35,195 bases of DNA, from assembly GCF_024509035.1 (NCBI RefSeq), contig NZ_JANINT010000137.1:1-35195 (forward strand), given 5' to 3'. The DNA comes from Nocardioides sp. (GTDB taxonomy: Bacteria; Actinomycetota; Actinomycetes; Propionibacteriales; Nocardioidaceae). The position numbers and the translations under genes were made by a program. Positions within the stretch are counted from its first letter, which is position 1. Each line of letters opens with the position of its first letter. The notes below the pieces were generated by a model. That model made no database searches. It was not told the DNA's origin and saw only the letters and a program-made list of their open reading frames with translations. Positions 2,877-33,850 of the stretch are shown one piece after another.

Positions 2877-5449
2877 CGCGCAGCTTCGGTCAGGAGGTCG
2901 GGCCCGACCCGCTCGACCGAGGACGATTCCCCGCCAACCCGTGGGCGTTGGTCGAGACGGGCTACAGCCCCGTCGACCTGGGCGTGACCGAGACGCTGTT
3001 CTCGGTCGCCAACGGCTACCTCGGGATGCGCGGCAACCCCGAGGAGGGGCGCCCGTCGTACGCCCACGGGACGTTCGTCAACGGCTTCCACGAGACCTGG
3101 CCGATCCGGCACGCGGAGGCCGCGTTCGGGTTCGCCCAGACCGGCCAGACGATCGTCAACGCGCCGGACACGATGGTCCTCAAGATCTACGTCGACGACG
3201 AGCCGCTGACGTTCGGCACGGCCGACCTGGAGCACTACGAGCGGTGCCTGGACTTCCGCGACGGCATCTTGCGCCGCCACCTGATCTGGCGCACGCCGTC
3301 GGGCAAGCGGGTGCGCATCGACTCCACCCGCATGGTGTCGATGACGCAGCGGCACCTCGCGATCATGAGCCTCGAGGTCGAGATGCTCAGCGGCGACGCC
3401 CCGGTGGTGATCTCCTCCCAGATCCTCAACCGACAAGACGGCCTGGACGAGTACCGCGCGGTCCACCCCACGGGCGGCGAGATGGTCGACCCCCGCCGGG
3501 CCCAGACGTTCGGCGAGCGGGTGCTCGTCCCACGGCTCGGCTACGCCAGCCAGGACCGGATGGCACTCGGCTTCCGGTGCGCGCACTCCGGGATGACCAT
3601 CGCCGTCGCGGCCGACCACGTGCTCGAGACCACCGACGAGCACGAGGCGCTCGCCCGGCACGAGGACGACCAGGCCAAGATGGTCTTCCGCGTCGACGCC
3701 ACCCAGGGCACGACGATGCGGGTGCAGAAGACCGTGGCCTACCACACCTCCCGGGTCGCGCCGGTGCGCGAGCTCTCCGATCGCTGCGACCGCACCCTCG
3801 ACCGGGCGCGACGGCACGGCGTCGAGCGCTGCCTCGCCGACCAGCGCGCGTGGTACGCCGACTTCTGGGCGGCCGCCGACGTGGAGGTGACCTGCGAGAC
3901 GCCGGAGCAGCTCGCCATCCAGCAGGCCATCCGCTTCAACCTGTTCAGCCTCGCCCAGGCGACCGGCCGCATCGACGGCCTCGGCGTACCCGCGAAGGGG
4001 CTGACCGGCTCGGGATACGAGGGCCACTACTTCTGGGACACCGAGATCTACGTGGTGCCCTTCTTGACCTACACGCGGCCCGAGGTCGCGCGCAACGCCC
4101 TGCACTTCCGCTCGGTGATGTTGCCCGCGGCGCGCGAACGGGCGCGAGAGATGGCGTTGAGCGGCGCGATGTACCCCTGGCGCACGATCAACGGCGAGGA
4201 GGCGTCGGCCTACTACGCCGCCGGCAGCGCGCAGGTGCACATCGACGCCGACATCGCCTACGCGGTGACGAAGTACGTCCGCGCCACGGGCGACCACGGC
4301 TTCCTGCTCCGCGAGGGCATCGACATCCTGGTCGAGACCTCCCGCATGTGGGCCGACCTCGGTTTCTGGCGCAGCAACGGTGAGCCGTCGTTCCACATCC
4401 ACGGCGTCACCGGCCCCGACGAGTACACGACGGTCGTCAACAACAACCTGTTCACCAACGTGATGGCCCGCTTCAACCTCGAGCAGGCCGTCGAGGCGCT
4501 GGAGTGGATCCGCGCCGAGCACCCCGACGACTACGTCCGGGTCGCCGCCCGGTTGCACCTGGACCCCGACGAGGTCGCGGAGTGGCGCCGGTGCGCGGAG
4601 GGCATGACGATCCCCTACGACGAGGGGCTCGGCATCCACCCGCAGGACGACTTCTTCCTCGACCGCGAGGTCTGGGACCTCTCCCGCACGCCCGTGGAGC
4701 TGCGGCCGCTGCTGCTGCACTACCACCCGCTGGTGATCTACCGGTTCCAGGTGCTCAAGCAGGCCGACGTGGTGCTGGCGCTGTTCCTCCAGGGCGACCG
4801 GTTCACCCTGGAGGAGAAGCGTGCCGACTTCGAGTACTACGACCCGATCACCACCGGTGACTCGACGCTGTCAGCGGTCGTGCAGTCGGTGATCGCAGCC
4901 GAGGTCGGCTACCACGAGGCGGCGCTGCACTACTTCCACGAGTCGCTCTACGTGGACCTCGCCAACCTGCACGGCAACACCGTCGACGGCCTGCACGTCG
5001 CCTCGACGGGCGGCGTGTGGAGCGCGCTGGCCTTCGGGTTCGGCGGCATGCGCGACCACGGCGGCCGGCTCAGCTTCGAGCCGCGACTGCCCCTCACCTG
5101 GCCGGGCCTGACGTTCCGCGTGTGCTGGCAGGGCTCGCGGATGCAGGTCGAGCTCACCCAGGACCGGGTGGTCTTCACGATCGTCGAGGGCGAGTCGGAC
5201 GTCCCGGTCCGGGTCCGCGGCACCGACCACGTCGTCGCCAAGGGCGCGCCCGTGGTCGTCGAGCTCCCCGACCAGGGTGACCGGATCGACGGGTTGCTCG
5301 GCGAGCACCCGATCATCGGCGGCACCCGCGCCGACGGCAGCACGATCACGGCCGGGGTGCCCGAGCCGATCCAGCCGCCGCCCGACGACCTGGACATGAC
5401 CGGCGAGCTGCCGGCGTACGTGGACACCGCGCCGCCGCTGGCGCCGTAG
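2873..5449 (+). CDS. glycoside hydrolase family 65 protein (disaccharide phosphorylase/hydrolase)
   Basis: GH65 enzymes split alpha-glucosidic disaccharides (maltose, trehalose, kojibiose, nigerose), most by phosphorolysis with inversion to beta-glucose 1-phosphate. The 858-aa product has an N-terminal beta-sandwich (NGYLGMRGNPEEG near residue 46), then the (alpha/alpha)6 catalytic barrel with GSGYEGHYFWDTE, and GVTGPDEYTTVVNNN carrying the expected catalytic acid E517. A C-terminal beta domain follows. The coupled upstream HAD gene would use beta-glucose 1-phosphate, which favours a phosphorylase over a hydrolase. Which disaccharide is used cannot be told from sequence alone. No sugar transporter sits nearby, so the substrate may be an internal one such as trehalose. 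The next gene (pcaJ-like) is convergent, 35 bp away. Confidence 0.93.
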   Translation: MTRSFGQEVGPDPLDRGRFPANPWALVETGYSPVDLGVTETLFSVANGYLGMRGNPEEGRPSYAHGTFVNGFHETWPIRHAEAAFGFAQTGQTIVNAPDTMVLKIYVDDEPLTFGTADLEHYERCLDFRDGILRRHLIWRTPSGKRVRIDSTRMVSMTQRHLAIMSLEVEMLSGDAPVVISSQILNRQDGLDEYRAVHPTGGEMVDPRRAQTFGERVLVPRLGYASQDRMALGFRCAHSGMTIAVAADHVLETTDEHEALARHEDDQAKMVFRVDATQGTTMRVQKTVAYHTSRVAPVRELSDRCDRTLDRARRHGVERCLADQRAWYADFWAAADVEVTCETPEQLAIQQAIRFNLFSLAQATGRIDGLGVPAKGLTGSGYEGHYFWDTEIYVVPFLTYTRPEVARNALHFRSVMLPAARERAREMALSGAMYPWRTINGEEASAYYAAGSAQVHIDADIAYAVTKYVRATGDHGFLLREGIDILVETSRMWADLGFWRSNGEPSFHIHGVTGPDEYTTVVNNNLFTNVMARFNLEQAVEALEWIRAEHPDDYVRVAARLHLDPDEVAEWRRCAEGMTIPYDEGLGIHPQDDFFLDREVWDLSRTPVELRPLLLHYHPLVIYRFQVLKQADVVLALFLQGDRFTLEEKRADFEYYDPITTGDSTLSAVVQSVIAAEVGYHEAALHYFHESLYVDLANLHGNTVDGLHVASTGGVWSALAFGFGGMRDHGGRLSFEPRLPLTWPGLTFRVCWQGSRMQVELTQDRVVFTIVEGESDVPVRVRGTDHVVAKGAPVVVELPDQGDRIDGLLGEHPIIGGTRADGSTITAGVPEPIQPPPDDLDMTGELPAYVDTAPPLAP

Positions 5450-25404: not shown

Positions 25405-25450
25405 GCCCGCTGGGCGGCGCGGCCTCTCCCTGGCCGCCCGGTGGGCTCAG
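25401..25450 (+). terminator. interrupted long hairpin after the 77-aa gene
   Basis: CTGAGCCC (25401-25408) pairs with GGGCTCAG (25443-25450), and inside it GGGCGGC (25412-25418) pairs with GCCGCCC (25433-25439). The structure begins over the stop codon of the small gene. No T-run follows, as is common for actinobacterial terminators. Confidence 0.6.
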
Positions 25451-25488
25451 CCACGCCTCTGCCCACCGGGCAAGGCACAATCGAGCCC

Positions 25489-26403
25489 ATGTCCGCGACC
25501 CCTGCCCGCGCCCTCCCCGCGCCGACGCTCGCGTTCCACGACGTGCTGTCCGACGACGGCACCCGGCTGCGCGCCTGGACCAACGACCCCGACGGCACCC
25601 GCACCGGGCCGACCGTGGTGCTGTGCAACGGACTCGGCACCAGCGCCTGGGCGTGGCCCGCGTTCCTCGATCCCGCCTGCGACGTGCGGGTGGTCTCGTG
25701 GAACCACCGCGGCACCGGCGGCTCCGAGCGCCCGGCCGACCTCGACCACGTCGGCGTCGAGGCGTTCGCCGAGGACGGCCTCTCGGTGATGGACCACTTC
25801 GGCATCGACCGCGCCGTCCTGGTGGGCTGGTCGATCGGCGTCAACACGATGTACGAGCTCGCCGCCCGCCACCCCGAGCGGGTCACCGGCCTGTTCGCGG
25901 TCGCCGGCGTGCCGGGCGACACCTTCGCCACGATGCTGCGCCCGCTGCGCGTGCCGGCGTTCGCCGCCAAGGCCATCGCGGTCAACTTCTCCCGCGCCCT
26001 GAAGTACGGCGGCCACCTGGTCACCCCGATCTCCACCCGCCTCCCGGTGGGCCGGCGCACGGTCGACGTCGTCAGCCACAGCGGGTTCATGCTCCCGGTC
26101 GCCGACCCCGAGCTCACCCGCCGCACGATCGCGGCGTTCCTCGAGACCCCCGTCGAGTGGTACTTCCACGTCGCGCTGCACACCTCCAAGCACCCGAAGG
26201 TCTCGCTGAGCCGGGTCACGGCACCGGCCGCGTTCGTGGCCGGCACCTTCGACGTGCTGGCCGGCACCCACGCGATGGCCGAGGCGGCCCGGCGCATCGA
26301 GGGGGCCACCTACACCGAGCTGCGCGGCACGCACTTCGTGCAGATGGAGCACCCCGACCGCGTGCACGCGCTGCTGCTGGAGTTCCTGCGTAAGGTCGGC
26401 TGA
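25489..26403 (+). CDS. alpha/beta-fold hydrolase
   Basis: Serine hydrolase-type protein of 304 aa, cytosolic. It has the oxyanion segment VVLCNGLGTSAWAW, WNHRGTGGS, the nucleophile elbow GWSIGV (S115), the acid in VAGTFDVLAG (D255) and the His in LRGTHFVQMEH (H282 most likely). The ATG at 25489 is chosen over the in-frame start at 25441, which would overlap the upstream hairpin; CACAAT 7 nt before the ATG may be a leaderless -10. The next gene starts 1 bp after its stop, so it forms a unit with the sugar dehydrogenase lipoprotein gene. Substrate (ester, lactone or halide) unknown. A lactonase would make sense beside a sugar dehydrogenase, but that is only a guess. Confidence 0.87.
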   Translation: MSATPARALPAPTLAFHDVLSDDGTRLRAWTNDPDGTRTGPTVVLCNGLGTSAWAWPAFLDPACDVRVVSWNHRGTGGSERPADLDHVGVEAFAEDGLSVMDHFGIDRAVLVGWSIGVNTMYELAARHPERVTGLFAVAGVPGDTFATMLRPLRVPAFAAKAIAVNFSRALKYGGHLVTPISTRLPVGRRTVDVVSHSGFMLPVADPELTRRTIAAFLETPVEWYFHVALHTSKHPKVSLSRVTAPAAFVAGTFDVLAGTHAMAEAARRIEGATYTELRGTHFVQMEHPDRVHALLLEFLRKVG

Positions 26404-26404
26404 C

Positions 26405-27583
26405 ATGCGACGCACCACCGCCCTGGTCGGCACGGCCACGCTCGCCGCCGTGCTGCTCAGCGGGTGCGGTGGTGACGACGAGCCCGAGGACTCCGGCGAC
26501 ACCGTCACGGCGACCCCGCAGCCGACCGGACCGTCCTCCCCCACGACCCCCGGGACCGGACCGTCCAAGCCCACCGGCGACAACACGCCGTCGACCGACG
26601 ACGGTCCCGCGAAGGTGGTCGGCACCATCGCCACCGGCCTGGCCGCGCCGTGGGGCCTGGCGTTCCTGCCGAACGGCGACGCGGTCGTCACCGAGCGGGA
26701 CACCCGACGGGTGCTGCTGCTCGACGCGCCGTCGTACGACGTGCGCCAGGTCGGCCTCATCGACGCGGCCGTCTCCAACGGCGACACCGGCGGCGAGGCC
26801 GGGCTCCTCGGCGTCGCGGTCTCCCCCGACTTCGGCTCGGACCGGACGCTGTTCTTCTACCTGAGCACCGCCGCGGACAACCGCATCGTGAAGGCGCGGC
26901 TCGAGGGCAGTCGGCTCGGCACCCCGACGGTGATCCTCGACGGGATCCCCGTCGGCGGGATCCACGACGGCGGGCGGCTCGCGTTCGGCCCCGACGGCTA
27001 CCTCTACGCCTCCACCGGCGAGACCGGCGACCGCGACCTCGCCCAGGACAAGGGCACGCTGGCGGGCAAGATCCTGCGGATCACCACCGACGGCGAGCCG
27101 GCGCCGGGCAACCCGTTCCCCGGCTCGGAGATCTGGTCCTTCGGGCACCGCAACGTCCAGGGGCTCGCGTTCGACGACGCGGACCGGCTGTGGGCCTCGG
27201 AGTTCGGCGACCAGACCTACGACGAGCTCAACCTGATCCGCCCGGGCGAGAACTACGGGTGGCCGATGGTCGAGGGTCGCGGCGGCACCGGCGGCCTGAT
27301 CGACCCACAGGTGGTGTGGGAGACCGACGTCGCCTCGCCCTCGGGGCTGGCCTGGCTCGACGGGCACCTGTGGCTGGCCTCGCTGCGCGGCGAGCGGCTG
27401 TGGCGCATCGATGTCCACGGCGACCACGCCAGCCACCCCGTCGACTTCTTCGTCGGGAAGTACGGCCGGATGCGCACCGTGGTCGCGACGCCCGAGGGTC
27501 GGCTGTGGGTGACGACCAGCAACCGCGACGGCCGCGGCGATCCGGCACCCGGTGACGACCGGATCCTGCTCATCGAGCCGTGA
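26405..27583 (+). CDS. PQQ-type sugar dehydrogenase, lipoprotein
   Basis: Soluble-glucose-dehydrogenase/sorbosone-dehydrogenase family beta-propeller, exported and lipid-anchored. The 392-aa product has a signal peptide ending LLSGC (C21), a Thr/Pro-rich linker (about 25-68), then the propeller: LAAPWGLAFLPNGDAVVTER, GEAGLLGVAVSPDF, GGIHDGGRLAFGPDG (candidate catalytic His H187), WSFGHRNVQGLAF and ENYGWPMVEG. These are the family landmarks. Oxidation of a sugar or other alcohol with PQQ outside the membrane is the expected role. PQQ synthesis genes are not in the window, so the cofactor may be scavenged or the family role may differ. Its last 14 bp overlap the convergent ECF S-component gene. 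Confidence 0.88.
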   Translation: MRRTTALVGTATLAAVLLSGCGGDDEPEDSGDTVTATPQPTGPSSPTTPGTGPSKPTGDNTPSTDDGPAKVVGTIATGLAAPWGLAFLPNGDAVVTERDTRRVLLLDAPSYDVRQVGLIDAAVSNGDTGGEAGLLGVAVSPDFGSDRTLFFYLSTAADNRIVKARLEGSRLGTPTVILDGIPVGGIHDGGRLAFGPDGYLYASTGETGDRDLAQDKGTLAGKILRITTDGEPAPGNPFPGSEIWSFGHRNVQGLAFDDADRLWASEFGDQTYDELNLIRPGENYGWPMVEGRGGTGGLIDPQVVWETDVASPSGLAWLDGHLWLASLRGERLWRIDVHGDHASHPVDFFVGKYGRMRTVVATPEGRLWVTTSNRDGRGDPAPGDDRILLIEP

Positions 27584-28403
27584 CGGAGACCCCGCTGTCG
27601 ACCGGACGCTCGACCGTGCCGGTCACGGTGGCCCGCCGTGCCGCCCGGCGCAGCGTGGTGAGGACGGCCGGGCCCAGCAGGACGATCGCGACGACGTTGG
27701 TGATCGCGCGCACCGAGTCCCAGCTGCCGGTCGAGGTCAGCAGCGTGTAGACGAGGAACGTGTGCAGGTTGTCCAGCAGCGGCGCACCGGGCACGTAGGA
27801 CAGCGAGCCCTCGTGGCCGGGCACCTCGATGCCGGTGATGAACGGCCACCCCGAGAGGTTCATGAGCAGGCCGAAGAGGTACGCCGCCACCACGCCGTAG
27901 GCGGCCAGCACCGCGATCTCGGCCCGCCCCCGCAGGCCGCGCGGCAGCAGACCGGCTCCCATGCCGACCCAGGCGGCGCAGAGCATCTGGTAGGGCAGCC
28001 ACGGCCCGACGCCGGCGGTCATCAGCGCCGAGGCGAACAGCGACGTGCAGCCGAGCACGAAGCCGAATCCGGGCCCGAAGACGCGCCCGGCGAGGATCAG
28101 CAGGAAGAACGTCAGCTCCACCCCGGCGGTGCCGGGCGAGATGCCGCGGAGCACGGCGTTGACCGCGCTGAGCACGCCGAGCACCGCGAGCACACGGGGG
28201 TCCATGCCGCCCTCGTTGAGCTCGGCGAGCACGACCGCGAGGACCACCGGCAGCAGCGCGACGAACAGGAACGGCGGGTCGACCCGCGCACCCTCGGGCA
28301 CCCGCAGCAGCAGCGGCCAGCACAGCATCATCAGCCCCGCGGCCGACGCGACCGCCAGCACCGCGCCGGAGCGCAGGGAGACGCGGACCGCGGGGCGGCT
28401 CAT
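27570..28403 (-). CDS. ECF transporter substrate-binding (S) component, probably for cobalamin
   Basis: Membrane protein of 277 aa with about six or more hydrophobic segments (e.g. GAVLAVASAAGLMMLCWPLLL, PPFLFVALLPVVLAVVLAEL, LTFFLLILAGRVFGPGFGFVLG, AAYGVVAAYLFGLLMNLSG, AITNVVAIVLLGPAVL). The ELTFFLLILAGRVFGPGFGF segment and the place next to T and A genes are typical of S components. It is longer than most vitamin S components (about 190 aa). The start at 28403 overlaps the ATPase stop (ATGA). It is the last gene of the riboswitch-controlled operon, so cobalamin or a precursor is the likely ligand; this is inference from control and context. Confidence 0.85.
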   Translation of the reverse strand: MSRPAVRVSLRSGAVLAVASAAGLMMLCWPLLLRVPEGARVDPPFLFVALLPVVLAVVLAELNEGGMDPRVLAVLGVLSAVNAVLRGISPGTAGVELTFFLLILAGRVFGPGFGFVLGCTSLFASALMTAGVGPWLPYQMLCAAWVGMGAGLLPRGLRGRAEIAVLAAYGVVAAYLFGLLMNLSGWPFITGIEVPGHEGSLSYVPGAPLLDNLHTFLVYTLLTSTGSWDSVRAITNVVAIVLLGPAVLTTLRRAARRATVTGTVERPVDSGVSVTAR

Positions 28404-29992
28404 GACGCGCTCGGCTCCTGCTCGAGCCGCCGGACGACCTCGTCGACGCGCAGCCACCCCGCGCCGAGCACCTTGGTCACCTGGGGCGCGAACGACGGCG
28501 ACTCGGCGACCACCCGGCGTACCGGGCCCGAGGAGACGACCTCGCCCTCGGCGAGCACGACGACGTCGTCGGCCACCTGGGCGACGAACTCCACGTCGTG
28601 GGTCGCGACGAGCACCGTGCGGCCGTCGGCGGCGAGCCCGCGCAGCACCCGCGCGAGCACGTGCTTGGCGGCGTAGTCGAGGCCGCGGGTCGGCTCGTCG
28701 AGCAGCAGCACCTGGGGGCGCGCGGTCAGCACGATGGCGAGCACCAGCGCGAGCCGCTGCCCCTCGGAGAGGTCACGCGGGTGCTGGTCGGCGGGGATCC
28801 CGGGCACCAGCTCCTCGAGCAGGCCCTGGCAGGCGCCGGTGCCGCCGTCGGCGGCCGCACACTCCTCGGCGACCGTCTCGAGGTAGAGCAGGTCGGCGGC
28901 GTTCTGCGGGACCAGCCCGACCAGGCCGCGGCGCTCGGCGACGGCGAGGTCGGCGGGATCGACCCCGCCGATGGTGATCCGGCCGCCCGAGCGTCGGCCG
29001 CTGCCCTGCAGCGCCCAGATCAGCGAGGACTTGCCGGAGCCGTTGCGGCCCATCAGCGCGGTCACCCGGCCCCCGCCGAGCTCGAGGTCCACGTCGCGCA
29101 CGGCCACGGTCTCGCCGTGGACGACCGCGAGGCGCCGTACGGCGACGGCGGGCTCCTGCTCGGCCTCGGCGACGTCCGGCGGGACCCCGAGGCGCTCGAC
29201 GAGGCCGCGGGCCCGGCGGCGGGCGTCGCGCACGCTCAGCGGCAGCGGACGCCAGCCGGCGGCCCGGCCGAGCTCGACGATCGGGGGCACGACCGGCGAG
29301 GTCACCAGCAGCTCGCCCGGCTCGCCCACGTGCACCCGCCCGGCCCCGGTGAGCAGGCACATCCGGTCGGCGAACGGCACGACCCGCTCGAGGCGGTGCT
29401 CGGCGACCAGCACCGAGACGCCGAGGTCGTGCACGAGCCGGGTCAGGGTCGCCAGCACCTCCTCGGCGGCCGTGGGGTCGAGGGCCGAGGTCGGCTCGTC
29501 GAGGACGAGGAGGCGGGGATGCATGGTGAGGACCGAGCCGATCGCGACCCGCTGCTGCTGACCGCCCGAGAGCGTGCGCAGGTCGCGGGCGCGCAGGTCG
29601 GCGATGCCGAGCAGGTCGAGGGTCTCCTCGACGCGCCGCCGCATGGTGTCGGGCGGCAGGCCGAGCTGCTCCATGCCGTAGGCGAGCTCCTCCTCCACGG
29701 TGTCGGTGACGAACCCCGCGGCGGGGTTCTGCCCGACGAAGCCGATCGCGTGCGCGCGGTCGCGCGGCGGGGTGTGCACGATGCTCGCGCCGTCGAGCAG
29801 CACATCGCCGCGCAGGGTGCCGCCGGAGAAGCGCGGGACCAGGCCGGTCACCACACCCAGCAGGGTCGACTTCCCGGCGCCGGTCGGGCCCGAGACGAGC
29901 ACCAGCTCGCCCTCGTCGACCTCGAGGTCGACGTCGGCCAGGACCGGTGGCCCGTCGTCGTAGGAGAACCCGATGCCGCGCAGCTCGATCAT
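28400..29992 (-). CDS. ECF transporter ATPase, two fused ABC domains
   Basis: Energy module of the importer: both nucleotide-binding domains (EcfA and EcfA') in one 530-aa chain. Domain 1: Walker A GPTGAGKS (35-42), signature LSGGQQQR (from 141), Walker B LLVLDEPTSALD (from 161), switch VAEHR. Domain 2: Walker A GRNGSGKS (315-322), variant signature LSEGQ (408-412), Walker B VLLLDEPTRGLD (from 428), switch VATHD. A linker of about 40 residues joins them. The domains differ in signature and switch, which may make the two ATP sites unequal. The start overlaps the T-component stop and the end overlaps the S-component start (both ATGA), so A, T and S are produced together. Confidence 0.93.
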   Translation of the reverse strand: MIELRGIGFSYDDGPPVLADVDLEVDEGELVLVSGPTGAGKSTLLGVVTGLVPRFSGGTLRGDVLLDGASIVHTPPRDRAHAIGFVGQNPAAGFVTDTVEEELAYGMEQLGLPPDTMRRRVEETLDLLGIADLRARDLRTLSGGQQQRVAIGSVLTMHPRLLVLDEPTSALDPTAAEEVLATLTRLVHDLGVSVLVAEHRLERVVPFADRMCLLTGAGRVHVGEPGELLVTSPVVPPIVELGRAAGWRPLPLSVRDARRRARGLVERLGVPPDVAEAEQEPAVAVRRLAVVHGETVAVRDVDLELGGGRVTALMGRNGSGKSSLIWALQGSGRRSGGRITIGGVDPADLAVAERRGLVGLVPQNAADLLYLETVAEECAAADGGTGACQGLLEELVPGIPADQHPRDLSEGQRLALVLAIVLTARPQVLLLDEPTRGLDYAAKHVLARVLRGLAADGRTVLVATHDVEFVAQVADDVVVLAEGEVVSSGPVRRVVAESPSFAPQVTKVLGAGWLRVDEVVRRLEQEPSAS

Positions 29993-31113
29993 GCCGCCAC
30001 CTCCTGGGGCGTCTCGGTCCGCACGAGCGCGGCGCTCATCGCTCGCGGGGGCTGGGGGGAGCAGAGGGCGCCGGCCAGCGCCACGACCGCCGCGGCGAGC
30101 GCGGTCGCGCTCACCGGAGGCATGGCGTCGAGCACCGGGTAGGCGACCAGGAGCTGGTGGTGCGCGAGCCACCAGCCGATCGCACCGACGGTGAAACCCG
30201 ACCCCGCCACGGCGAGCTCCGGTGCGTGCCACCGGTCGGCTCGATAGCGGGTGCGCTCGACCCGGCGGCCGGCGCTGAGCAGGCCGGCCCCGGCCGCGAG
30301 GACGCCGAACGCCAGCATCGGCAGCGCGAGGTAGCGCGGCGCGGTCGTGTCGAGGACGGCGTACACGCCCACGCAGATGCCGCCGAGACCGACGAGCATG
30401 AGTGCTCCCGTCGTCCGTCGTCGGGCGCGGGTCAGGCCGGTCGCGCGGCCGTAGCCGCGGGTGTCCATGCCGGCGGCCAGCGCGAGCGAGCGCTCCAGCG
30501 CGTCCTCGAGCACGGGCACCAGGAAGCGGCGCAGTCGCCCGATCCGGCCGGTGTCGCCGCCGCGCAGGACCTGGGCCGCCTTGACCCGGCGCGCGCTGTC
30601 GGCGAGCTGCGGGAGGATGCTGACCGCGACCACCAGCGCGGTGCCGATCTCGTAGAGCGCCGGCGGCACCGAGCGCAGCAGCCGCTTGGGGTTGGCCAGC
30701 GAGTTGGCGGCGCCGATGCAGATCACGATCGTGGCCAGACGGAGGCCGTCGTAGAGGGCGAAGAGCAGCGCCTGGGCGTGCACCGGCCCGAGCAGGGTGA
30801 TGCCGGCGACCCAGTCGGGCAGCGGGATCTCCGGCAGGTCGAGCAGCACCGGCCCGCCCGACCAGCCGCCGAAGACCAGCCGGAACACCACGCGGATCAC
30901 GACGATCGCGACCCCGAGCCACAGGTAGAGGCCGAACGAGAGCGCCCACGGGTGGTCCGAGCGTCGCAGCGACACCGCAGTGGCGGCCACGCCGATGATC
31001 ATCAGCAGGAGCAGGGGGTTGGTGGTGAACGACGCCGCCACCGCGAGCCCGACCGCCCACAGCCACCAGGCCACGGGGTGCAGGTCGCGGTGTCGGCGTA
31101 CGTTCGCGGTCAC
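29989..31113 (-). CDS. ECF transporter transmembrane (T) component
   Basis: CbiQ/EcfT-type coupling protein of 374 aa. It has hydrophobic segments at both ends and the cytosolic coupling helices between: ILPQLADSARRVKAAQVLRGG (Ala-Arg-Arg at 174-176) and LALAAGMDTRGYG (up to 222). These are the two Arg motifs that contact the ATPases in this family. GTG start overlaps the stop of the DUF4430-like gene (GTGA). It is longer than a plain EcfT by a further membrane part of about 130 residues (from about 230) with about four hydrophobic stretches; the role of that extension is unknown. Confidence 0.92.
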   Translation of the reverse strand: MTANVRRHRDLHPVAWWLWAVGLAVAASFTTNPLLLLMIIGVAATAVSLRRSDHPWALSFGLYLWLGVAIVVIRVVFRLVFGGWSGGPVLLDLPEIPLPDWVAGITLLGPVHAQALLFALYDGLRLATIVICIGAANSLANPKRLLRSVPPALYEIGTALVVAVSILPQLADSARRVKAAQVLRGGDTGRIGRLRRFLVPVLEDALERSLALAAGMDTRGYGRATGLTRARRRTTGALMLVGLGGICVGVYAVLDTTAPRYLALPMLAFGVLAAGAGLLSAGRRVERTRYRADRWHAPELAVAGSGFTVGAIGWWLAHHQLLVAYPVLDAMPPVSATALAAAVVALAGALCSPQPPRAMSAALVRTETPQEVAA

Positions 31114-32003
31114 GGCCGGGCCGACCTCCGGCGCCGCGCCAGGGCGGCGCCGCCAGCGGCGCCGAACAGCGCGACGATCGCCACCGGCGCGACCCAGGAC
31201 GGGAGCCCTGGGTCGTCGGAGCCCTCGGGGTCGGTGGCCTCGGCGGACACCGGGGCCGCGTCGGCGCTCGGCGCCTCGCTCGGTGCGGTGCCGTCGGTGG
31301 CCGTCGGGCTGGGGTCGACGCTGCCCGGAGCCGGCGGCTTGTCGCCCTTGCGGTCACCCTTGCCGGCCCCTCGGGTCGGCGCTGCGGTGGCGTCGCCGGA
31401 GGCGTCCGCGCTCGGCGAGGCCGAGCCCGACGGGTTCCCCTGGCCGGAGCCCGAGCCGACGGGCCCAGGCCCGTGGCTCGTGCCGTGGGTGGGCGCCTTC
31501 GTCGGCGCCGTGGTCGGGGTCGGCTCGGCCGCCGGGTGCGGTGACGGGTTGACCCCGGGGGTCGAGCGGGCCGAGGAGCCGTTCCAGGAGAAGGCCACGT
31601 AGCCACCGTCGGGGACCTTCAGCGATCCGGCCCCGGTCGTGGCGTAGGTCCACGACCCCGACGTCCCGTCGGACCAGTACAGCCCCCAGTAGGCGTCGGC
31701 CGGGGGCGTGTTCACGCACGGGTCGTCGGCAGGCTTGCCGGCCACGCGGCACACGAAGCTCGGCTGGCGCTGGACATAGGTCAGCGAGAAGCCGGCGGCC
31801 GCGAACAGGCTGGCGGCCGTGTCGCCACCGCCGCCCGCGACGCACGCCGACTGCACCCCGCCGCCGAGCTCGTGGAAGTCGACGACGACGCTGACGCCGT
31901 CGGCGGACGCACAGGTCGACGCGCTCGCCGGGGAGGCCGGCATGCCGGCGTACGCCGCCGCGGCCATGGTGGCCGCGGCGGCGATCCGAGACAGTGTCCG
32001 CAC
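31110..32003 (-). CDS. secreted, tail-anchored DUF4430/transcobalamin-beta-like protein
   Basis: The 297-aa product has a Sec signal peptide (VRTLSRIAAAATMAAAAYAG, cleavage near PASA-ST about 29). A small domain (about 31-145) with four Cys (C31, C54, C85, C96) ends in AYWGLYWSDGTSGSWTYATTG and VPDGGYVAFSW, the YW...W.Y...G...DG...W pattern of the DUF4430/transcobalamin C-terminal fold. A Pro/Ser/Thr/Ala-rich stalk (about 146-262) and one membrane helix (VAPVAIVALFGAAGGAALA) with RRRR follow. No LPXTG motif. I recall similar actinobacterial proteins named the SCO2322 family. GTG at 32003 lies 1 bp after the barrel-protein stop. The likely role is surface capture of cobalamin with the upstream barrel protein and hand-over to the ECF S component; the role is inference. 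Confidence 0.75.
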   Translation of the reverse strand: MRTLSRIAAAATMAAAAYAGMPASPASASTCASADGVSVVVDFHELGGGVQSACVAGGGGDTAASLFAAAGFSLTYVQRQPSFVCRVAGKPADDPCVNTPPADAYWGLYWSDGTSGSWTYATTGAGSLKVPDGGYVAFSWNGSSARSTPGVNPSPHPAAEPTPTTAPTKAPTHGTSHGPGPVGSGSGQGNPSGSASPSADASGDATAAPTRGAGKGDRKGDKPPAPGSVDPSPTATDGTAPSEAPSADAAPVSAEATDPEGSDDPGLPSWVAPVAIVALFGAAGGAALARRRRSARP

Positions 32004-32004
32004 G

Positions 32005-33630
32005 TCAGCGGGTGACGGTGAAGGAGCCGGCGGCCTTGCGGTGGGCGAACTGTCCGCGCACCACGACCTTGGCCTTGCCCGGGCGGTTCGGGACCTTGGT
32101 CCGGAACACCAGGACACCCTTGCCGTTGGCCTGGCCCGACGCGCCCTCGCCCGCCCCGCTCGAGCCCTTCGCGGGCCAGGTGATCTTGGCGGTGCCGATC
32201 TCGCCCGGGGCGAGGCCGGCGATCTTGATGACCTGCTTGGCGCCGGGGGCGACGCGCGCCTTGAGGGTGAGCTTCAGCCTCGTCCTGCCCAGGGCGTTGA
32301 TGGTGACCTTGTTGATCGTCCCGGCGGCGTTCGCGACCGTCACCCGGCTCTTGCCGGTCGTGGCCGGGATCCGGACGCGGAGCTGGGCCTCACCGGACGT
32401 GTCGGCGTAGCCGAGCACGGACTGCTCGCCGAGCATCGCGCAGAGTGCCTCGCCCGGAGCGGCGTCGATCACGCCGACCGGCTTGAAGCCACCGGCCCGG
32501 ACGTACTCGGCCGCGAACAGCGCGTGCGGCTCGCCCGTGCCGGCCGGTGCCCACTGGAGGGCGGGCAGCGCCTGGGCGGTCGCCATCAGGAACTGGCCCT
32601 GGGTGGCCGCGTCGATCGCACCGCCGCTCTGGATGGCCTTCAGCGCGGCGTCGTCGTAGGCGATCGCCCCGAGGTCGGCTGCTGCGTAGTAGACGCAGTT
32701 GGCGACGTTGGCCGCCTGGTGCGCGCGGATCCACGAGGCCGCGTCGGCCGCCGCGTCGGTCGCGCCCAGGGTGGCGAGCGCGGAGGCGGCGAGCCCGGTG
32801 CTGTTGGTGTTCGGAGCCTCGGTGGTGGGACCGCCGCCGAAGGCGCCGTTCGCCCGCTGGCTGTCCAGCAGCCACGTCTTGGCGCGAGCGAGCGCGTCGG
32901 CCACACCCGGCGCGGTCGCGTCGCCGGCCAGGGCGAGCACGGCCTGGGACGTCGAGTCGGTGTCGGGCTCGTCCCCGGCGCCGCAGGACTGCGCGCCCGG
33001 GGCCGCGGGGATGTCACCCCGGAAGAAGCCCGCGGGGCACTGCTGGTCGAGCAGGTAGTCGACGGCCGCGGCGTACGCCGTGCTGCCGGTGCCGCGCAGG
33101 CCCTCGGCCGCCAGGGCCTGGATGTAGGTGTTGTCGTAGCTGTCGTCGGGCGCGCCGTCGGCCGTCGAGATCACCCGGCCGCTGTCGGCGACCAGGGAGT
33201 CGAGACGCTCGACGAGGTCGACACCGCCGAACGCGTGCTCGTCGCCACCGACGCGCTGGGCCAGCACGAGCACCTTGGCGGTCGACCCGCCCGACTCGCC
33301 GGTGTGGGTGACGCCCTTGTCGTCGTAGGAGTAGGCGATGTAGTCGTTGACGCCGGCCTCGACCGCGTCGCGGATGCGGGTGACGGTGGCCTCCTGGCCA
33401 CCGACGGCGTGCAGGCCGAGGGCGACGTCGATGCCGAGGCCGTACTGCGGGCCGTAGTCGCTCGGGAACAGTCCCGAGTCGGGCACCTGTCCGGCCAACC
33501 AGGCGGCGGAGGCCGCGGCCGGAGCCGGGTCGGTCGCGGCGGCGGCCGGAGCGGAGGTCGCCGCCAGCGCGGTGAGAGAGAGGGCCGGGACCGCCAGGAG
33601 GGCGGTCGAGCGGCGCACGAGGGTGTGCAT
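32005..33630 (-). CDS. secreted alpha6-alpha6-barrel protein (prenyltransferase/intrinsic-factor alpha-domain-like)
   Basis: The 541-aa product has a Sec signal peptide (about 1-33, ending SAPAAAA). A helical-repeat domain (about 40-375) follows with repeated QW-like elements: WLAGQVPDSGLFPSD (44-58), YLLDQQCPAGFFRG (192-205), TSQAVLALAG (227-236) and WLLDSQRANGAFGGG (253-267) before NTNSTGLAASALATLG. A beta-rich tail (about 413-541) is Lys/Arg-rich and resembles an Ig-like domain. This toroid fold is shared by terpene cyclases, prenyltransferases and the alpha domain of intrinsic factor/transcobalamin. A DxDD cyclase motif is not seen and the protein is exported, so binding rather than catalysis is likely. 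ATG at 33630 with AAGGA 6 nt upstream. First gene after the cobalamin riboswitch. Confidence 0.82.
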   Translation of the reverse strand: MHTLVRRSTALLAVPALSLTALAATSAPAAAATDPAPAAASAAWLAGQVPDSGLFPSDYGPQYGLGIDVALGLHAVGGQEATVTRIRDAVEAGVNDYIAYSYDDKGVTHTGESGGSTAKVLVLAQRVGGDEHAFGGVDLVERLDSLVADSGRVISTADGAPDDSYDNTYIQALAAEGLRGTGSTAYAAAVDYLLDQQCPAGFFRGDIPAAPGAQSCGAGDEPDTDSTSQAVLALAGDATAPGVADALARAKTWLLDSQRANGAFGGGPTTEAPNTNSTGLAASALATLGATDAAADAASWIRAHQAANVANCVYYAAADLGAIAYDDAALKAIQSGGAIDAATQGQFLMATAQALPALQWAPAGTGEPHALFAAEYVRAGGFKPVGVIDAAPGEALCAMLGEQSVLGYADTSGEAQLRVRIPATTGKSRVTVANAAGTINKVTINALGRTRLKLTLKARVAPGAKQVIKIAGLAPGEIGTAKITWPAKGSSGAGEGASGQANGKGVLVFRTKVPNRPGKAKVVVRGQFAHRKAAGSFTVTR

Positions 33631-33640
33631 GGTGTTCCTT

Positions 33641-33693
33641 CCCGCTGCGACAGCGGGAGGCGGTCAGGGAGGTTCCCCGGCGGCCACCCGCTG
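33641..33693 (-). promoter_or_regulatory. candidate riboswitch expression platform over the ribosome site
   Basis: In the RNA, CAGCGGG (a, 33693-33687) and CAGCGGG (c, 33647-33641) are identical and both are complementary to CCCGCTG (b, 33657-33651). Pairing b:c makes a 7-bp stem with a 3-nt loop. With CCT before b it can extend, with one bulged A, into the AAGG of the Shine-Dalgarno that follows c. Pairing a:b would free it. The two forms exclude each other, as expected for translational control. The switch direction is inferred. Confidence 0.55.
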
Positions 33694-33719
33694 CTTTCCT
33701 CGACAGCGTGTGATCAGGA

Positions 33720-33850
33720 CGCGTCGCTTCGGGTGCTCCGGCTCGCCCCCGGCCCTGGCTGGTCGGGAGGCCTACGGTTGCGGGTCAGCGCCGGACTCGG
33801 ACCGGCTTCCCCCAGCTGCGGGCGTGGTGAATGTGTTGAGTTGTAGGGCC
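33720..33850 (-). ncRNA. cobalamin (AdoCbl) riboswitch aptamer
   Basis: On the minus strand the leader contains the conserved cobalamin aptamer core: GGGAA, then GCCGGTCCGAGTCCGGC and CGCTGACCCGCAACCGTA (33810-33770), matching the known GGTnnnAgtCC hairpin and GCnGaCCCGCaACnGT joining segment. The B12-box equivalent GAGCCGGAGCACCCG follows at 33744-33730. Outer limits are approximate. The aptamer lies about 100 nt before the first gene of the ECF operon. These elements normally turn expression off when adenosylcobalamin is present, so the operon should be induced by B12 shortage. Confidence 0.93.

Follow-up and report, generated by a model that had tools for sequence, protein, structure and literature searches.

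The animal carriers of vitamin B12 (such as PDB entries 2pmv, 2bb5, 2bb6, and 4kki) consist of a toroidal alpha domain followed by a beta domain. When the two domains of human transcobalamin (TC-alpha and TC-beta) were expressed separately, they co-eluted only with cyanocobalamin (CNCbl), and TC-beta alone was crystallized with CNCbl (PMC5599065). In bacteria, transport of B12 by an energy-coupling factor (ECF) system is already known: ECF-CbrT of Lactobacillus delbrueckii is a vitamin B12 ECF transporter, with cbrT located in an nrdJ-cbrS-cbrT-pduO cluster, and the role of binding protein falls in such systems to the S component in the membrane (PMC5997447). Here, we analyzed a 35,195-nucleotide stretch of Nocardioides sp. 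DNA (assembly GCF_024509035.1, contig NZ_JANINT010000137.1, positions 1 to 35,195; "the window" hereafter), in which a cobalamin riboswitch precedes five genes coding for an alpha/alpha toroid protein (BARREL), a protein with a transcobalamin-beta-like domain (BETA), and the T, fused A-A, and S components of an ECF transporter. This operon is likely to be a cobalamin-repressed importer of B12 or a related corrinoid, whose two secreted halves would close on B12 as in transcobalamin.

The whole riboswitch and five-gene unit spans positions 27570 to 33840 of the minus strand. BARREL (33630-32005) codes for 541 amino acids (aa), starting with a signal-like stretch and lacking any further hydrophobic segment, and BETA (32003-31110), which has a GTG start, for 297 aa. 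The other three genes, also on the minus strand, are the ECF T component of the CbiQ family (31113-29989; PF02361, 39.1 bits versus a cut-off of 25), a fused duplicated ECF ATPase or A-A (29992-28400; two ABC_tran stretches at 5.6e-50, with the cbiO model above its own cut-off and TIGR04521 and TIGR04520 under theirs), and the substrate-binding membrane component S (28403-27570; PF12822, ECF_trnsprt, 35.4 bits versus 30.7). Pfam matches over the cut-offs bear out these three identities, which had been proposed in a preliminary description of this DNA. The genes are separated by +1, -4, -4, and -4 bases behind a single leader. The ECF set is a dedicated one, as T, two ATPase domains, and S are co-encoded in the window and T-AA-S is kept in relatives. 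What is shared with ECF-CbrT is an ECF transporter whose S component is linked to B12; unlike that system, S of the window has no sequence match among PDB chains (nothing at E<=10), the T and A-A genes belong to the operon itself, and two predicted exported carrier-like proteins are added. A BtuF-like binding protein or FecCD-type permease was not found in the Pfam matches of the five operon genes, the remaining genome not having been searched. The earlier claim that the system does without a BtuF-type lipoprotein is thus right for this operon; some relatives have a BETA that is itself a lipoprotein (a LAAC lipobox is present in three metH-linked BETA genes that were read).

The leader contains a divergent actinobacterial cobalamin riboswitch (33696-33840, minus strand), comprising the aptamer and the start of the next hairpin. 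Its core (33811-33751, model positions 46-168) scores 26.5 bits against RF00174 (E 5.6e-5), under the Rfam gathering score of 31.5. Leaders of relatives exceed this cut-off (32.4 bits in L179 and 38-42 bits in G034 and G012), and because they score strongly, we class the element of the window as a divergent subtype. R1, a covariance model made from 41 leaders, the window's own included, has a single match in the window at E<=0.1 (33840-33696, 124 bits) and scores 58-91 bits in five distant loci outside the model (L106, L103, L112, L141, and L131). Within the 41-leader alignment the riboswitch core is nearly invariant and a variable stem covaries, 9 of the 20 predicted pairs having changed on both sides. 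A cobalamin riboswitch ahead of five coupled genes, the starting point of the preliminary description, is thereby confirmed, and the segments that were then taken for its core fall inside the element.

Downstream of the aptamer, a probable expression platform could be read from the sequence (33636-33708, minus strand). A first hairpin (CGCTG...CAGCG, about 33708-33689) is followed by a second one (CCCGCTG/CAGCGGG, 33657-33641) adjoining a Shine-Dalgarno-like AAGGA (33640-33636) ahead of the ATG at 33630, and a comparable arrangement was seen, by eye and uncounted, in most of the relatives' leaders inspected. Since the hairpin abuts the ribosome-binding site, control by this leader is probably translational. 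The sole other RF00174 match in the source genome (L001, G000:C81:5805-5947, minus strand, 52.3 bits) is divergent from an adjoining open reading frame (ORF) of the tetrapyrrole methylase family (PF00590), at a locus whose sequence is partly N. At another locus (L296), tandem riboswitches on the plus strand, one at 3104-3235 (93 bits with R1) and one at 3436-3575 (53 bits), stand ahead of T-AA-S-BETA.

BETA (31110-32003, minus strand) is composed of a signal-like N-terminus, a transcobalamin-beta-like domain (aa 28-146; 31566-31922, minus strand), a Pro/Ser/Thr-rich linker, a C-terminal hydrophobic segment located by hydropathy scan (aa 271-289; 31137-31193, minus strand), and arginines. The domain was recognized from a 74-row alignment, from which a structure model was built, and from VIA. 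The top 15 VIA rows of this model are all transcobalamin, intrinsic factor, haptocorrin, or the PDB entry 3u7z (Z 9.4-10.5), and the following row, the archaeal SAMP1, drops to Z 5.8. The first 17 Foldseek ranks are occupied by transcobalamin, haptocorrin, and 3u7z (best E 9.1e-4), with intrinsic factor at ranks 25 and 39. As modeled, the match of the beta-domain fold to transcobalamin, intrinsic factor, and haptocorrin is specific. By sequence, BETA had one meaningless match in the PDB when used alone (E 1.5) and none with a 31-row profile.

The entry 3u7z is the Ruminococcus gnavus protein RUMGNA_00854, titled "putative metal binding protein," which we take to be a DUF4430 protein. The Pfam DUF4430 model (PF14478) matched neither BETA nor 31 relatives at E<=1, nor was there any match in the source genome at the same threshold, and a profile-profile comparison of BETA with DUF4430 was weak (E 2.3e-4, probability 44%). 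The label "DUF4430-like," as applied in the preliminary description, is therefore appropriate for the fold but not for the Pfam family. The title of 3u7z and the CbiQ family of T could point to cobalt import by the ECF genes, in the manner of CbiMNQO, with surface proteins that bind the metal. This is highly improbable, as S matches ECF_trnsprt, CbiM is absent from its Pfam matches, and the beta fold is that of the cobalamin carriers.

In BARREL (32005-33630, minus strand), about aa 33-362 form an alpha/alpha toroid, and the C-terminal part, about aa 369-541, is an all-beta region. The AlphaFold2 model of BARREL, obtained from a 73-row alignment, has a predicted local distance difference test score (pLDDT) of 94.7 and a predicted template modeling score (pTM) of 0.91. 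VIA retrieved transcobalamin (Z 16.7) and haptocorrin (Z 16.6), as well as squalene-hopene-type cyclases (Z 23.6), and BARREL superposes on transcobalamin at 3.1 A over 237 residues with 20% identity; intrinsic factor was not among the 50 VIA rows listed for BARREL, which excludes nothing. Foldseek placed complement C3b at rank 1, poorly superposed (TM 0.28), probably because C3b combines toroid and beta domains. The match of the alpha part to the cobalamin carriers is, as far as the model goes, a shared fold and not a specific one. Hence, the structural match to the transcobalamin domains that the preliminary description predicted for both proteins is very specific for BETA, while BARREL has the same fold without specificity.

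The nearest folds of BARREL, and also its PDB sequence profile match (squalene-hopene cyclase, 7.6e-21), would fit a chance neighbor in the operon that acts as a class II terpene cyclase or is a prenyltransferase-like enzyme. Class II terpene cyclases have a DXDD motif. At the corresponding site of BARREL the third position is Asp in 73/73 members, but the fourth is Asp in only 1/73. Given also the signal-like N-terminus of BARREL, its fusion to BETA in relatives, and the B12 riboswitch ahead of its gene, we give hardly any credence to such an enzyme, and a terpene cyclase function was rejected on the broken motif. The polar toroid residues kept in >=90% of the 73 members (Asp68, Lys119, Gln171, Gln196, Gln197, Asp225, Gln258, Asn274, Asn276, Gln305, and Gln353) would suit an amide-rich ligand.

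The C-terminal all-beta region (32005-32520 in the window, minus strand) is seemingly missing in some relatives, such as L143, in which BARREL stops after about 318 toroid residues, so it may be dispensable for the conserved function; at a guess, it could bind the cell wall. BARREL also matched the NCBIfam family SCO2321_fam (NF053823) at 1.2e-11, far under the curated cut-off. SCO2322_fam (NF040672) had weak matches in 8/8 distant BETA proteins and none in BETA of the window itself. The adjacent SCO numbers suggest that the same gene pair exists in Streptomyces coelicolor, although both families are matched far under their curated cut-offs and their names carry no function.

To assess how the two genes travel together, we searched 198 genomes of the family Nocardioidaceae, with one sequence for BARREL and a profile for BETA. 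BARREL was found in 131 of them; 130 genomes have both genes, 1 has BARREL only, 19 have BETA only, and 48 have neither, the count of BETA-only genomes being an upper bound because BARREL was sought by a single sequence and BETA by a profile. Counted against close homologues of S (E<1e-85, a chosen threshold that omits weaker S matches), 144 genomes have BETA and S, 5 BETA only, 1 S only, and 48 neither. The constant partner of the ECF genes is BETA and not the BARREL-BETA pair. In 39 loci that were cut out, a nonrandom set consisting mainly of the better-scoring BARREL matches, separate genes are ordered BARREL-BETA-T-AA-S in 31, BARREL and BETA are fused in one (L071), the genes are rearranged in one (L050), and BARREL stands alone in six. 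A riboswitch core is found ahead of a BARREL gene in all 39, with a looser pattern required for L054 and L071. Another set of 80 named loci, overlapping the first (L038 and L165, for example, are the same contig) and including two loci from one assembly (L192 and L195), has all five genes in order in 73, and the remaining seven lose genes to the end of a contig. Among the named relatives, the closest are Nocardioides. Of these 80 loci, 77 carry the core ahead of BETA (in L164 it lies between BARREL and BETA), and the three without it (L145, L155, and L180) start within 177 bases of BARREL or BETA.

Within the six loci where BARREL stands alone, all from genomes of one genus, the gene is near gatB, as in the window, and has its own riboswitch. 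BETA is found elsewhere in all six genomes, also with its own riboswitch, and it is followed by T, A-A, and S in five, the sixth being at a contig end. That both unlinked halves were kept under the same type of switch is a strong sign of one function. Tandem toroid genes were observed in 24 of the 80 named loci (L167, L170-L173, L175, L177-L179, L181, L183, L184, L187, L188, L190-L192, L194, L195, L198, L203, L204, L207, and L221), with the riboswitch between the two copies, so the first copy is outside the control of this leader; R1 found no second riboswitch in the 23 of these loci that were searched. In L038 (the contig shared with L165) and L070, a doubled BARREL-BETA pair precedes one T-AA-S set, with a riboswitch core for each pair.

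The two proteins are also found as one polypeptide. BARREL-BETA fusions are present in seven genomes of five genera and in both domain orders, alpha first in L139 and L140 (one genus), L103 and L138 (another genus), L112, and L131, and beta first in L142, whose ORF call is overlong, as the riboswitch is inside its 5' part. The L138 fusion carries two beta domains. In L139 (the same genome as L071), SCO2321_fam covers the toroid and SCO2322_fam the beta domain, and the C-terminus is a hydrophobic stretch followed by arginines. With these fusions, the adjacency of the genes, and the genome counts given above, the conserved pairing foreseen in the preliminary description was borne out.

The system is spread over the phylum, the BETA profile matching 47 of 396 genomes sampled from Actinomycetota. 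We looked for RF00174 in 43 genomes (39 of the 47 plus four family members), a set that excludes the source genome and partial BETA matches (E 2e-4 to 9e-4) in G212, G241, G319, G395, G459, G489, and G548. Under stricter filters, the riboswitch directly precedes BARREL or BETA in 34 of the 43; G018 was added by R1, and in four more (G438, G518, G531, and G558) the gene is at a contig end. One genome (G422) was scored on its first locus, and its second BETA-ECF locus (L127) has a riboswitch by R1 only. The last four genomes (G205, G421, G464, and G539) have no RF00174 match genome-wide and no R1 match at the locus. No homologous operon was found under a different riboswitch, which would have spoken against the original proposal; in the loci examined, a cobalamin riboswitch precedes BARREL or BETA, except at contig ends, in the four genomes just named, at a DUF4430 locus (G274), and in the first copy of tandem BARREL genes. 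The interpretation in the preliminary description is thus supported, having survived the three of its four refutation tests that were run.

In the four riboswitch-less genomes (loci L113, L116, L117, and L298), the ECF T, A-A, and S components are in one polypeptide beside BETA, and these genes point towards metH. Each genome has a single detected B12-binding domain, which lies 4-7 kb from BETA and belongs to methionine synthase, MetH, in 4/4 (the metH ORF is truncated by the locus end in L116), and two genomes of the same family (G453 and G512) have neither BETA nor a B12-binding domain. The proximity of BETA-ECF to MetH as the sole B12-binding domain provides a link to B12 that is independent of the riboswitch. 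It also bears on the identity of the substrate, which could instead be a precursor or fragment of B12 (cobinamide, another cobamide, or dimethylbenzimidazole). The second cobalamin riboswitch of the source genome is beside, yet divergent from, a corrin-methylase ORF, so at least part of the biosynthetic pathway is possible, and BtuF, the human carriers, and CbrT are poly-specific for cobalamin and cobinamide (PMC5997447). Nonetheless, with MetH as the only detected B12-binding domain near BETA-ECF, and with a transcobalamin-like fold that would favor a corrin-ring ligand over dimethylbenzimidazole alone, we regard a precursor as quite unlikely.

Under the interpretation that we prefer, import of B12 by a two-part clamp, B12 shortage would lead the leader to permit expression of the operon, and T, A-A, and S would assemble into a dedicated ECF transporter. 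We infer that both surface proteins are exported. The transcobalamin-beta-like domain of BETA would be held at the membrane by a flexible linker and a C-terminal anchor. BARREL would be secreted, its alpha/alpha toroid corresponding to the alpha domain in intrinsic factor and transcobalamin. The beta domain would bind B12 before the toroid closes, in a B12-dependent assembly like that of the separated human transcobalamin domains, and the ternary complex would thereby be tethered beside S, to which B12 would be passed for import with ATP. The likeness to the animal carriers includes the common beta fold (Z 9.4-10.5), the toroid partner (Z 16.7), the alpha-then-beta order matched by 6/7 fused relatives, and the extracytoplasmic location, which is likewise predicted for the window proteins. 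Unlike the animal carriers, the window has two chains, an apparently membrane-anchored beta domain, and an ECF importer instead of endocytosis, and its sequences fall short of the Pfam family Cobalamin_bind (PF01122).

Several observations weigh against this clamp. The toroid is nearer to the terpene cyclases than to transcobalamin (Z 23.6 and 16.7), PF01122 is matched by 6/73 BARREL members at E<=0.1 (best 0.019) and by 1/10 distant proteins (7.8e-4, under the cut-off), BARREL of the window has no visible anchor, the riboswitch of the window is below the gathering score, and confidence in the BETA model is no more than moderate (pLDDT 80.3, pTM 0.73). Besides, we examined 15 of the 19 BETA-only family genomes (G045, G064, G070, and G083 were left out), and 13 consist of riboswitch, BETA, and ECF genes with no toroid nearby; of the other two, one does have BARREL and one is at a contig end. 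No toroid was recognized either in four riboswitch-bearing loci from the phylum (L114, L121, L133, and L135) or in the four metH loci. A clamp is therefore not obligatory, and in toroid-less loci BETA may serve alone; the toroid, where present, would then raise affinity or guard the vitamin.

The same toroid-less loci would suit a simpler arrangement, in which BETA, with S, captures the corrinoid alone and there is no clamp; BARREL would then be an optional surface protein in its own right, such as a wall-bound scaffold. Human TC-beta was crystallized with CNCbl by itself (PMC5599065), and BARREL appears to evolve faster, with a mean column identity of 29% versus 58% for BETA and 75% for S (19-row alignment), values that come from different row sets. 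On the other hand, seven genomes have BARREL-BETA fusions, with both domain orders represented, BARREL occurs without BETA in only 1 of 131 genomes, and orphan BARREL genes retain their own B12 riboswitch. Capture by BETA without a clamp is, in our view, unlikely, although it deserves some weight.

DUF4430 proteins are among the closest known counterparts of this arrangement; 3u7z has the same fold as BETA, although the Pfam model does not recognize BETA. Their likeness to the C-terminal domain of transcobalamin is presumably reflected in database naming. Canonical Pfam DUF4430 is found in 51 of 296 phylum-sample genomes. We examined 20 of the 51, and 18 have a same-strand RF00174 match within about 4 kb upstream (under the gathering score in three); of the two others, G274 has none and the contig of G489 ends 1.6 kb upstream. 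A-A and S genes are found in 17 of the 20 loci and a toroid in 13. One locus (L106) has the order BETA-T-AA-S-BARREL followed by a Pfam DUF4430 protein. A table on lactobacilli lists an "Additional lipoprotein component of putative cobalamin ECF transporter" (PMC9963975), which may well be a DUF4430 protein. In the literature consulted, no tested function is given for bacterial DUF4430.

Surface capture of B12 is shared with the Bacteroides surface lipoproteins BtuG and BtuH, which have different folds and work with outer-membrane transport. To our knowledge, little is known about such capture in Gram-positive bacteria. In the literature searched, mostly without subscription papers, we found no bacterial transcobalamin-like ECF system, nor the combination of a B12-regulated ECF set with a toroid protein and a beta protein, the fusions, the split regulons, or the metH link. 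More speculatively, and less likely than not in our view, this could be a bacterial intrinsic factor/transcobalamin clamp from which the animal carriers descend or with which they share an ancestor, the fused alpha-beta proteins of Actinomycetota being prokaryotic counterparts; in the two-chain form, B12 would glue a freely secreted alpha "corrinophore" back to the anchored beta domain. Extracellular capture of B12 would then resemble the capture of iron by siderophores. If our preferred interpretation is right, DUF4430-type and SCO2321/SCO2322-type proteins would gain a function, and a carrier-assisted mode would be added to ECF transport. It would also provide a genetically tractable bacterial transcobalamin clamp, in split and fused forms, and would bear on the origin of the animal B12 carriers.

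Regarding its surroundings, the operon has gatB upstream and, downstream, a gene of the glucose/sorbosone dehydrogenase family on the opposite strand (26405-27583, plus strand), next to an alpha/beta hydrolase gene (25441-26403, plus strand). A homologue of the dehydrogenase was also observed beside the orphan BARREL in three of the six loci (L051, L054, and L060).

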